Positions 3,680-25,210 of a DNA stretch of 25,210 nucleotides are shown piece by piece. Position 1 is the stretch's first letter; each line of letters starts with the position of its first letter. This DNA is from Candidatus Desantisbacteria bacterium CG1_02_49_89. Lineage in GTDB: Bacteria; Desantisbacteria; UBA1551. The DNA is taken from the NCBI GenBank assembly GCA_001871075.1, contig MNUP01000079.1:1-25210 (forward strand). The letters are read 5' to 3'. The notes beneath the pieces were generated by a model, which saw nothing but the letters and a program-made list of their open reading frames with translations, had not been told where the DNA came from and did no database searches. A program made the translations under genes and the position numbers.

Positions 3680-4345
3680 TTATTTTAAAGTGTTTTTCTG
3701 ACTACTTTTAGAATTTTTAAATGTTCGACCCAGCATAACTTCGATTTTCTTTACAAATTCTTTATTACCCGCAGGTCGGCCTGATATTGTACTGCTTTTT
3801 ATTTCTTTAACAATTCTTCCATCTTCGTATTCTGAAAGGAAATTTTTCCAATCTTTAATTTCAGAAATTAGATAAGATTCCCCGGGCAATAAATTATCCA
3901 GTTTCCTATTTACATGGACTTGCGCGCTTGACCACCTATAATCCTCAGGATTATCTATAATACCCGCCTTGACCGGATTCATCTCTACATATCGAACAGC
4001 GGTATAAAGATGAGTTTCACCTAAAACACAGGAAAAAAACCTGGATTGCCACACATGCCCTTTGCGATTCTTCCGATGGTTGAAATATTGGGAATATAAG
4101 GTACCTACCGTATGAAAAACGCCCGACATTGAATCGGGATTTTTGGGAACAGCAACCAAGTGCAAATGGTTGGGCATCAAACAATAAGCCCAGATTTCCA
4201 AACCGAATTTTTTACTATATTTCTCCAGCAGTGAGAGATACGTTTTATAATCCGACTTGCTTGTAAATACTCTCTGCTGATTATTACCTCTTTGAGTGAT
4301 ATGGTGTGGAAAACCAACAGCTATCGCTCTTGCAATCCTGGGCAT
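3680..4345 (-). CDS. REP-associated tyrosine transposase (IS200-like Y1 family)
   Basis: 221 residues. Key motifs are HHITQRGNN at 14-22, the metal-binding HUH motif in MPNHLHLVAVP (His60, His62) and the nucleophilic tyrosine in AVRYVEMNPVKAG (Tyr119). A C-terminal helix-turn-helix-like part contains SGRPAGNKEF. The length is normal for RAYTs. The enzyme cleaves single-stranded REP hairpins through a 5'-phosphotyrosine intermediate. The ATG at 4345 is preceded by AAAGGAG at 5 nt. The gene is more AT-rich than its neighbours (compare the flanking hydrolase and deacetylase), which suggests a separate origin. The reading frame is intact, so it may be active. Confidence 0.92.
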   Translation of the reverse strand: MPRIARAIAVGFPHHITQRGNNQQRVFTSKSDYKTYLSLLEKYSKKFGLEIWAYCLMPNHLHLVAVPKNPDSMSGVFHTVGTLYSQYFNHRKNRKGHVWQSRFFSCVLGETHLYTAVRYVEMNPVKAGIIDNPEDYRWSSAQVHVNRKLDNLLPGESYLISEIKDWKNFLSEYEDGRIVKEIKSSTISGRPAGNKEFVKKIEVMLGRTFKNSKSSQKNTLK

Positions 4346-8033: not shown

Positions 8034-8891
8034 TTATATGCTCAAAAGGGCTATGCCGGCCGCTCCCAGGAATATGCCGGCATACCCCGCTTTCCTGATC
8101 TTTTCCCTGAACACGATAGCCGAAACTATTGTGCTGACAATGACAGGTCCGGTAAGCGTCACAGGAAAAACACCCGCTGGCGGATAGGTAGTAAGCAGCT
8201 TAAGCGTTAGGAAATTGCCTATAAGGCTGCATGCCGCGCCAGCGGTCCCGAACAGGAAAACCCTGCCGCCCAGCATCTTCCTGCCCGCGCTGAAAATAAA
8301 AAGAAGTATCCCGCCAGCAAGGTAGGTCACAAGCAGGTATGCAAGCAGATCAGACCCGAAACGCGCGGCTGTGGACTGGCAGATGCCGTTGCCCCCGTTT
8401 ATGAAAAAAGAGCTTACGGCGAAAAGAAGCCATTTGCCGCTGCTCGGTTTCTTTTCCCCGGAAGAGCTGGAAGTAATGAGCAGAAGGCTCAGTATTATAA
8501 GGCATATACCCAGTATCCTGAAAGGCCCGATCTTCTCCTTCCAGGCAATAACCGAGAAAACGACAGGTATCAGGAACGAGAGCTGGAACACGGACACGGA
8601 AAACGCGTAGTTGCCTATCTGCGCGGCTTTGGTGAAAAACAGGAACGCGGTTATGCCGCACACGCCCCCGGCTGCGGCCAGCAAAGAACAGAAAAGGGTA
8701 AAATTGACAGGACGGCGGGAAACCAGGACAGCGGCAAGGACCATGACCGCGGAAGACATCGAAACCACAGTGGTAAGCCCCAGCGGCGACATGCCCCTGT
8801 CCGTGCCAAGGCGCATGACAAGCGTTATCAGGCTGAAAACCGTTATGATCACAATAAAATAAATCAGGGCTGTCAAGTGTTCCCCTTTCAC
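8034..8891 (-). CDS. EamA/DMT-superfamily transporter
   Basis: 285 residues, almost entirely hydrophobic, with about ten predicted membrane helices in two five-helix repeats. Residues 1-140 and 151-285 each end in the typical short basic loop and helix (for example WKEKIGPFRILGICLIILSL and FREKIRKAGYAGIFLGAAGI). DMT proteins export or import amino acids, nucleotide sugars or other metabolites across the inner membrane; the substrate is unknown. The GTG at 8891 touches the stop of the upstream DegT gene (TAAGTG), implying coupling. A TTG five codons later, preceded by AAAGGGG, is a plausible alternative start. Confidence 0.85.
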   Translation of the reverse strand: MKGEHLTALIYFIVIITVFSLITLVMRLGTDRGMSPLGLTTVVSMSSAVMVLAAVLVSRRPVNFTLFCSLLAAAGGVCGITAFLFFTKAAQIGNYAFSVSVFQLSFLIPVVFSVIAWKEKIGPFRILGICLIILSLLLITSSSSGEKKPSSGKWLLFAVSSFFINGGNGICQSTAARFGSDLLAYLLVTYLAGGILLFIFSAGRKMLGGRVFLFGTAGAACSLIGNFLTLKLLTTYPPAGVFPVTLTGPVIVSTIVSAIVFREKIRKAGYAGIFLGAAGIALLSI

Positions 8892-23519: not shown

Positions 23520-23623
23520 AAATAATCTCCTCCCTGCGTCTTTGAATTACTTTTTTAATTTCCTTTTAATGGACTCGTCGCTCAAACTTTCCGGAGTAGA
23601 GCCTTTAGGCTCGTTTATTTCTC

Positions 23624-23698
23624 GTTTCAATCCACGCCTCCGCGCGGGAGGCGACTCCTGGAGTAGAGCCTTCAGGCTCGTTGGGTACCTGTTTCAAT
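23624..23698 (-). CRISPR. Orphan CRISPR unit: one 32-bp repeat, one spacer, one truncated repeat
   Basis: One complete repeat (23624-23655) is identical to the type-B repeat of the main array (GTTTCAATCCACGCCTCCGC...). A 35-nt spacer-like segment (23656-23690) follows, then an 8-nt repeat stub GTTTCAAT (23691-23698) at which the DUF1016 gene ends. On both sides of the repeat lies a similar GGAGTAGAGCCTTYAGGCTC sequence (23593-23612 and 23660-23679). The unit lies about 820 bp from the main array. Confidence 0.8.
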
Positions 23699-24206
23699 AA
23701 ACGTAATATCGGTTCTTCTTATCTGTTAAATCTTTAAATATGATTTGACATTTGTCAAGACCAGGCACCCAAGCTTTTTGAATGAGAGTATTTTGAACAT
23801 AATAAAGTGCTTCCTTAACGTTTTTGCATTTTGACATAATAACGATATTGTGTCCCCAGGGTATTTGGGTTATTTGGCCAACAAGTTGTTGGCTAAATGC
23901 AGGAGACCTGGAATAAAACAGGTACCATTGCTTTATGTATTTTAGATTACTCAGAGAAAAACCTTTAATATCGCGGAACTCAGCAGCTAAATCCCTGCTT
24001 AACTGGGCAAGAACCCCGTCGCCCCACTTTGATTTCTTTTGCTTTAAAACAATATCCACTCCGAGTTCCCAGTAAAAAGCGAGAAGTTCAGCATTGACTT
24101 TTATTACTGCTTTAATCTGGGCAGCACGGACCTTTTGCTTTATCTTTTCCAGCCAAACCTTATAGTCATTACCCTGGGCAAAATTAACAGCCATATTTGC
24201 ATTCAC
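23694..24206 (-). pseudogene. DUF1016/YhcG N-terminal domain gene, truncated and probably frameshifted
   Basis: 170 residues from GTG at 24206 (GGAGG 7 nt upstream). It contains the DUF1016 N-terminal hallmark run: NAELLAFYWELGVDIV, KWGDGVLAQLSRDLAAEF, GFSLSNLKYIKQWYLFY, IPWGHNIVIMSKCKNVKEAL. Full-length members are about 340 residues and end in a PDDEXK nuclease domain, which is absent. After QNTLIQKAW the frame departs from the family, while the neighbouring frame reads LVLTNVKSYLK, resembling the expected VLTNQIKSxLY. A frameshift near 23775 is therefore likely. The stop TGA lies inside a CRISPR-repeat stub. Family members are linked to restriction and mobile DNA processing. Confidence 0.72.
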
Positions 24207-24288
24207 AATCCTGCCTCCATATTTACAGAATTTTCCACCGCGTTTCTCCAATATCCGCTGGCATCAGCGCTATCATTTCAATCCCCAT

Positions 24289-24517
24289 ATTGTGACATGC
24301 TTACGATAGAACCCACGAACAACAAGGTTCTGCCGAAGGCAGGTTCTTATTGTGTCACGCCCACGACTCAACCCACGAACAACAAGGTTCTGCCGAAGGC
24401 AGGTTCTTATTGTGTCACGCCCACGACTCAACCCACGAACAACAAGGTTCCGAACGAAGTGAGCGGTTCTTATTGTGTCAGGCCTACGACTACACCTGCG
24501 GACAACAAGCTTTGCTT
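24289..24517. repeat. 60-bp tandem hairpin repeat next to the CRISPR array
   Basis: Two exact 60-bp units (24311-24370, 24371-24430), a third with a changed hairpin head (24431-24492), and partial units on each side. Each unit has the form ACAACAAG-GTT-CTGCC-GAA-GGCAG-GTT-CTTATTGT, an imperfect stem with symmetric GTT internal loops. The third head is CCGAACGAAGTGAGCGG. The last partial unit fuses with the degenerate terminal CRISPR repeat at CTTATAAATC. Confidence 0.85.
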
Positions 24518-25210
24518 ATAAATCGGGTCTTAAATTCTTACCGGTTAAGATTGTAAGCATTGCAAGGAACAGCGAAGGTTTCAATCCCCTATAAATCGGG
24601 TCTTAAATTCTTACGAAAATGTCGGAGGACTCCGCGCACATAGCCAAAAAGTTTCAATCCCCTATAAATCGGGTCTTAAATTCTTACAATGGTATACGTA
24701 GGGTAAGAGGCGCACAGGACAAAAGTTTCAATCCCCTATAAATCGGGTCTTAAATTCTTACATAGGGTGGCTGATACCGGAAGACAAGGACATAAAGGTT
24801 TCAATCCCCTATAAATCGGGTCTTAAATTCTTACCCGGGAAGCGGGCAGCAGGAAAGGGAGGCGAGTATGAAGTTTCAATCCACGCCTCCGCGCGGGAGG
24901 CGACATACTGCCCCTGTTATAAAATTTCCTAATATAAGTTTCAATCCACGCCTCCGCGCGGGAGGCGACTATAGCCGCTGGGGAAGATGAAATTGCCGTT
25001 ACTGTTTCAATCCACGCCTCCGCGCGGGAGGCGACTCAATGCTTATAATGCTATGGTGGACGTTGCAATGTTTCAATCCACGCCTCCGCGCGGGAGGCGA
25101 CCGCTAATTTAGCAGCTGGGGTTACAATTACATTTGTTTCAATCCACGCCTCCGCGCGGGAGGCGACAGATGAGGCGGCAAAAGGGATCCTGGGATTTAA
25201 GTTTCAATCC
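24517..25210 (-). CRISPR. Composite CRISPR array: 37-bp repeats switching to 32-bp repeats, continuing past the window
   Basis: Part A has a degenerate terminal repeat (24517-24541) and four complete 37-bp repeats starting at 24578, 24651, 24725 and 24798 (GTTTCAATCCCCTATAAATC... ending AAATTCTTAC), with spacers of 36, 36, 37, 36 and 38 nt. Part B has five complete 32-bp repeats starting at 24873, 24938, 25004, 25070 and 25136 (GTTTCAATCCACGCCTCCGC... ending GGAGGCGAC), with spacers of 33, 34, 34, 34 and 33 nt, and a partial repeat at 25201. On the minus strand both types end in GGATTGAAAC, so transcription is probably leftward. The degenerate repeat at 24517 then marks the leader-distal end and the leader lies beyond 25210. 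Repeat B is type I-C-like with a 7-bp stem (CGCCTCC/GGAGGCG). Repeat A is weakly structured. No cas genes are in the window. Confidence 0.95.

Follow-up and report, generated by a model that had tools for sequence, protein, structure and literature searches.

Layout of the array at the contig end

The right end of the window, which is the whole stretch of 25,210 nucleotides that was analysed, is formed by one uninterrupted run of repeats and spacers with two repeat types (Table 1). The 37-bp repeat GTTTCAATCCCCTATAAATCGGGTCTTAAATTCTTAC is present in four exact copies starting at positions 24578, 24651, 24725, and 24798, and the 32-bp I-C-like repeat GTTTCAATCCACGCCTCCGCGCGGGAGGCGAC in five, at 24873, 24938, 25004, 25070, and 25136. 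From left to right, the spacers have lengths of 36, 36, 37, 36, and 38 nt, and then 33, 34, 34, 34, and 33 nt, with complete separation of the two length classes at the repeat switch (exact p = 0.008). The run has the near-identical direct repeats and regular, unique spacers of a CRISPR array, with five units of each kind and all spacers different, and the clustering of two repeat families within it corresponds to the mixed repeats (DR mixing) described in PMC3396285. The initial annotation proposed an abrupt switch between two repeat types at 24873, a change of spacer length from 36–38 to 33–34 nt at the same point, and a similarity of the repeats limited to 10 bp. The exact repeat blocks and the separated spacer lengths confirm the first two claims, and the repeats have nothing else of note in common beyond GTTTCAATCC.

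The junction contains neither a leader, which was looked for between the two halves, nor a run of N. Bases 24857–24869 of the junction spacer (GGGAGGCGA) are identical to a part of the end of the I-C repeat (shuffle p = 0.016), a match that we judged to be probably due to chance. The right edge of the window is the true end of the contig (G000:C38, 25,210 bp), which stops at the sixth repeat of the I-C side, directly after the shared decamer. The array is known from one fragmented MAG, which consists of 150 contigs and is 93.5% complete.

Table 1. Coordinates of the array at the right end of the window and of the repeat cluster to its left
Feature	Position	Strand	Basis
Degenerate copy (28/37) of the 37-bp repeat of the sister genome, GTTTCAATCCTTGTTTTAATGGACTCGTCGTTCAAAC	23551..23587	-	24-base core exact, expected 0.00 in shuffles
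Perfect 32-bp I-C-like repeat, solo, not part of the main array	23624..23655	-	32/32
Candidate relic stub GTTTCAAT, 35 nt (one spacer length) from the solo repeat	23691..23698	-	spacing
Outermost (trailer-end) 37-bp repeat, bases 1–12 (ATTTCAATCCCC)	24275..24286	-	one mismatch; joined to 24517–24541 = 36/37
230-bp insertion of about four 60-bp hairpin units within the outermost repeat	24287..24516	.	tandem units; splits the repeat exactly after base 12
Outermost 37-bp repeat, bases 13–37	24517..24541	-	repeat match
Four intact 37-bp repeats, spacers 36–37 nt	24578..24834	-	exact copies
Junction spacer, 38 nt, length class of the 37-bp half	24835..24872	-	spacing
GTTTCAATCC at the junction, sole sequence common to both repeats	24873..24882	-	reverse complement contains the crRNA handle ATTGAAAC
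Five identical 32-bp I-C-like repeats, spacers 33–34 nt	24873..25167	-	7-bp stem, 5-nt loop, -13.0 kcal/mol
Final spacer before the contig end, 33 nt	25168..25200	-	spacing
Shared decamer opening the next repeat (10-base stub), cut by the contig end	25201..25210	-	contig = 25,210 bp

The array extends further to the left than 24517, where its start had been placed in the initial annotation, which overlooked the split outermost repeat. Segments 24275–24286 and 24517–24541 together rebuild one 37-bp repeat with 36/37 identity and no bases lost, so that the true left end is at 24275. When the 2.5 kb to the left were shuffled 1000 times, a 12-base prefix match of such quality appeared in 13 cases. 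The 230 bp between the segments (24287–24516) have partial matches at six other sites in the genome. Given the rarity of the prefix match in shuffles and its exact fit to the missing part of the 37 bases, we conclude that the outermost repeat was entered by a dispersed element, which split it after base 12. The split and degenerate repeats are located to the left, where old trailer ends would be expected. Positions 1–200 at the left contig end carry a different dispersed repeat family, which is matched >40 times in the genome, and a REP-associated-type Y1 transposase is encoded at 3680–4345.

A second group of repeat-like sequences is located at 23551–23698, 0.6 kb to the left of the main array. 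Its solo I-C repeat, which adjoins a degenerate I-B-type repeat (23551–23655), was likewise overlooked in the initial annotation. The solo repeat is preceded by a gap of 36 nt and followed by one of 35 nt. The hairpin GAGTAGAGCCTTYAGGCTCG is found in both of these spacer-length gaps (23589–23690); with ≤2 mismatches allowed, the genome has 27 occurrences of it. Variants of the hairpin, such as GACCC..GGGTC, alter both sides of the stem together. One possible reading of the cluster is the trailer end of another hybrid array; the other is an I-C repeat that lies between tandem hairpin elements. Under either reading, the solo copy establishes the I-C repeat as part of this genome. An ORF with a DUF1016 N-terminal domain (23694–24251), in which a C-terminal domain was not detected, ends at the GTTTCAAT stub and is maybe a truncated gene. 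The layout resembles that at 8513–8550 of L124 in the sister genome, where a solo copy of that genome's own 37-bp repeat is separated from an array by about 0.8 kb containing a DUF5714 gene.

Repeat types, shared decamer and orientation

The 32-bp block has the repeat form of type I-C systems, a stem-loop with GTTTCAATCCACGC, and its spacers fall within the 33–35 nt of such systems; the same repeat form is present in many arrays found by the genome scan. It resembles the I-C-like arrays of the scan in its repeat GTTTCAATCCACGC...GCGAC, strong stem-loop, and 33–34-nt spacers, and differs from type I-C arrays in that an I-C cas gene was not detected and a foreign repeat block is attached to its trailer end. 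The families of cas8c/csd1 (PF09709) and cas1 (PF01867) are absent from the bin, which is incomplete and from which the adjoining contig is missing. The I-C label, which was derived only from the repeat sequence, is a putative one. The 32-bp repeat has no match in plasmids.

The affiliation of the 37-bp block is less apparent. Its repeat had been described as unstructured, which is too strong: the 37-mer RNA folds weakly, yet better than its own shuffles (-8.9 kcal/mol, z = -3.6). A type III assignment finds no support in the bin, where the RAMP family PF03787 is absent, although this is weak evidence from an incomplete bin. The length of the repeat and its last ten bases agree with type I-B, and elsewhere the similarity does not exceed chance. 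The repeat was found only in the window among 386 genomes, including that of the window itself, and was not present in viral contigs. The cores of three spacers compared with viral contigs, and one whole spacer compared with phages, gave no match.

The closest comparison is provided by the type I-B locus of the sister genome (G001), which is the only relative of the same order that was compared; the family of the window organism consists of one genome. The locus encodes a Cst2/DevR-type Cas7, which scored above the cut-off, a Cas5b-like protein, Cas3, Cas1, Cas2, and Cas4. Its 37-bp repeats end with GGATTGAAAC, as do those of the window, and one of them has a near copy, preserved in degenerate form, at 23551–23587. 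Outside the decamer, in contrast, the 37-bp repeat of the main array agrees with the sister repeats no better than by chance (9/27, p ~0.3), and we rejected the I-B label for it.

When transcribed, the shared decamer GTTTCAATCC reads GGATTGAAAC and includes the 8-nt crRNA 5' handle ATTGAAAC. This handle is familiar from several type I and III systems. The same decamer is found in the type I-B repeats of the sister genome and in an unrelated 37-bp repeat of a Brocadiaceae MAG. An 8-nt, repeat-derived crRNA 5' handle is documented in PMC3396285. Since the decamer also occurs in other repeat types, sharing it is by itself no evidence of recombination, and these comparisons identify it as a common repeat end and not as a sign of shared descent.

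The order of elements at the sister locus is cas1-cas2-cas4, an AT-rich gap, and repeats ending with ...GGATTGAAAC. The repeats of the window have the reverse complement orientation. Therefore, the leader is expected to the right, outside the contig, as the initial annotation had suggested, with the I-C half leader-proximal and the 37-bp half leader-distal. The direction of transcription and the relative age of the halves are likewise provisional. The proposal that two adaptation machineries or Cas systems built the halves fared less well: the bin, 93.5% complete, contained no member of the Cas1, Csd1, or RAMP families, so two machineries can only be inferred. In I-C systems, Cas5c processes the I-C units. 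If an I-C system is present beyond the contig end, its Cas5c would cut the I-C units, and the 37-bp units would be silent without a nuclease of their own.

Origin of the junction

It is probable that the array is a genuine hybrid, in which an I-C array was fused onto a decaying 37-bp array. What is observed directly comprises both repeat blocks in their given order and the two classes of spacer length, together with an interrupted repeat at the outer end and a second site on the contig with a perfect I-C repeat; the joining of two arrays is the event that these findings suggest. The older, leader-distal part would be the remnant of an array with 37-bp repeats, one of which a dispersed element interrupted. 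This remnant would have been joined at a repeat edge, in or beside the shared GTTTCAATCC, by an array of I-C type or by an I-C leader with its first repeat. Any later growth would have copied the leader-proximal I-C repeat, making the leader side entirely I-C with 33–34-nt spacers. A transcript from the right would give I-C crRNAs first, and the 37-bp units would yield crRNAs only if their own processing nuclease were present.

The initial annotation placed a recombination event inside the shared 10 bp. Such an event is plausible, and the decamer could still be the site of the join, but the decamer is widespread, and 10 bp is shorter than the usual lengths for homologous recombination. The junction spacer has the length of the 37-bp half, which places the switch at the edge of the next repeat. 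A short-homology join or a Cas1-linked join at the repeat edge fits equally well as recombination within the 10 bp; short homology and Cas1-like chemistry leave the same sequence and are thus indistinguishable.

It is unlikely that the junction is artificial, either as a chimeric library molecule or as an assembly misjoin of two arrays from the same bacterium or community. The MAG is fragmented in the manner of short-read assemblies, with contig-end overlaps that vary from 95 to 121 bp and runs of N in some contigs, and chimeric molecules do form at short homologies. It is suspicious that the contig stops precisely at the end of the shared decamer, since this is the place where a graph would fork between the two repeat types. 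However, assemblers normally require overlaps far longer than 10 bp, the junction is free of N runs, and spacing and orientation across it are normal. The I-C repeat is also present independently in the interior of the contig, where a 32/32 copy has host genes as neighbours; the I-C block is hence more than a piece of foreign DNA attached to the contig end. The contig end is otherwise readable: its last 141 bases start exactly at a repeat start (25070), which would fit a k=141 graph with strain variation. Overlaps of 141 bp were not found among the sampled contig ends. Overlaps of 95–121 bp together with the N runs make the MAG unlike the output of one fixed k, and a single assembler k as the cause of the contig end is unsupported.

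The perfect I-C repeat at 23624, to the left of the 37-bp block and in the same orientation, is also what would be seen if a 37-bp segment, such as an excised repeat-spacer circle, had been inserted into an older I-C array and thus had I-C repeats on both sides. Nevertheless, the solo repeat is parted from the block by the DUF1016-family ORF and unrelated sequence, and its flanks hold dispersed hairpins that are found at other genome sites, which makes continuity with the array uncertain. We consider such an insertion very improbable.

A junction could also arise with no recombination of arrays, if the leader-proximal 37-bp repeat had been converted to the I-C form, by copying or conversion from another array, and then multiplied by adaptation. 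PMC3396285, citing Yosef et al. 2012, states that new repeats are copied from the leader-proximal repeat, so one conversion would produce a uniform block. However, the change of a 37-bp repeat into a 32-bp repeat with ten shared bases needs the same kind of join, and the proposal differs from the fusion of an I-C array onto the 37-bp array only in the number of I-C units that arrived at once. Conversion is extremely improbable as the origin of the junction.

In the main array, and perhaps in the 23551–23698 relic, the I-C type is on the leader side and the 37-bp type on the trailer side. That I-C arrays of this lineage repeatedly take the leader side of other arrays via the common crRNA-handle end is quite unlikely; if true, the shared handle would be a portable joint that combines the memories of unrelated CRISPR systems in one transcript.

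Rarity and relation to known arrays

We scanned 84,980 species genomes with an exact pattern for a non-I-C repeat located one unit before an I-C repeat. The pattern requires an exact GTTTCAATCC on each side and an ACGC within the I-C repeat, and it covers this order of the types; other repeat families lie outside it. The scan gave 16 stretches, nearly all of which reflect ordinary I-C-like arrays with point variants or with degenerate repeats at the end, and in none of the 16 is an unrelated repeat present as a block of several copies. Among viral contigs, this order had 0 matches and the opposite order one single-unit match. The best partial parallel is in a Brocadiaceae genome (L013), where a single 37-bp repeat GTTTCAATCCTCATCCAGCCCGAAGGCTGGATGCTAC precedes an I-C array; GTTTCAATCCTCATCCAGCCCGAAGGCTGGATGCTAC occurs once more in that genome, alone. 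In arrays of Campylobacterota MS502-29 (L011, L017), the I-C repeat variants GCACGCCCCGTGAGG, ACGCGCCCACGAGG, and ACGCGCCCCGTGTGG are mixed in blocks within one array.

As a rule, recombination of arrays has been deduced for repeats that are identical or nearly so. Two repeat families that each form clusters within one array, as in the window, have been described for crispr1 of Pyrobaculum oguniense and crispr5 of P. neutrophilum, where homologous recombination or copying of the leader-proximal repeat of another array was proposed as the cause (PMC3396285). One Pyrobaculum array combines repeats otherwise tied to III-A and III-B gene clusters (PMC3396285). The Pyrobaculum repeats are close relatives from one Cas type that differ in a few bases, in the 5' motif or the core, whereas those of the window differ in length (37 versus 32 bp), structure, and spacer class, and only 10 bp are common to them. 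In Sulfolobus, spacer-repeat segments are exchanged between CRISPR loci of one cell (PMC4390879); unlike in the window, with its unrelated repeat types, the exchange was inferred to occur via recombination between direct repeats. A later paper (PMC12282179) also mentions other work in which repeats were mixed between arrays. A junction of repeats that differ in length, structure, and spacer class was not found in our searches of the open literature, and the array of the window is a rare, extreme variant of a known array rearrangement.

The array calls for caution with array finders that assume one repeat per array. A fused array would permit a direct test of the processing and use of old spacers. 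A junction at which only the handle end is shared would show that unrelated arrays can fuse, with old spacers carried under a new leader.
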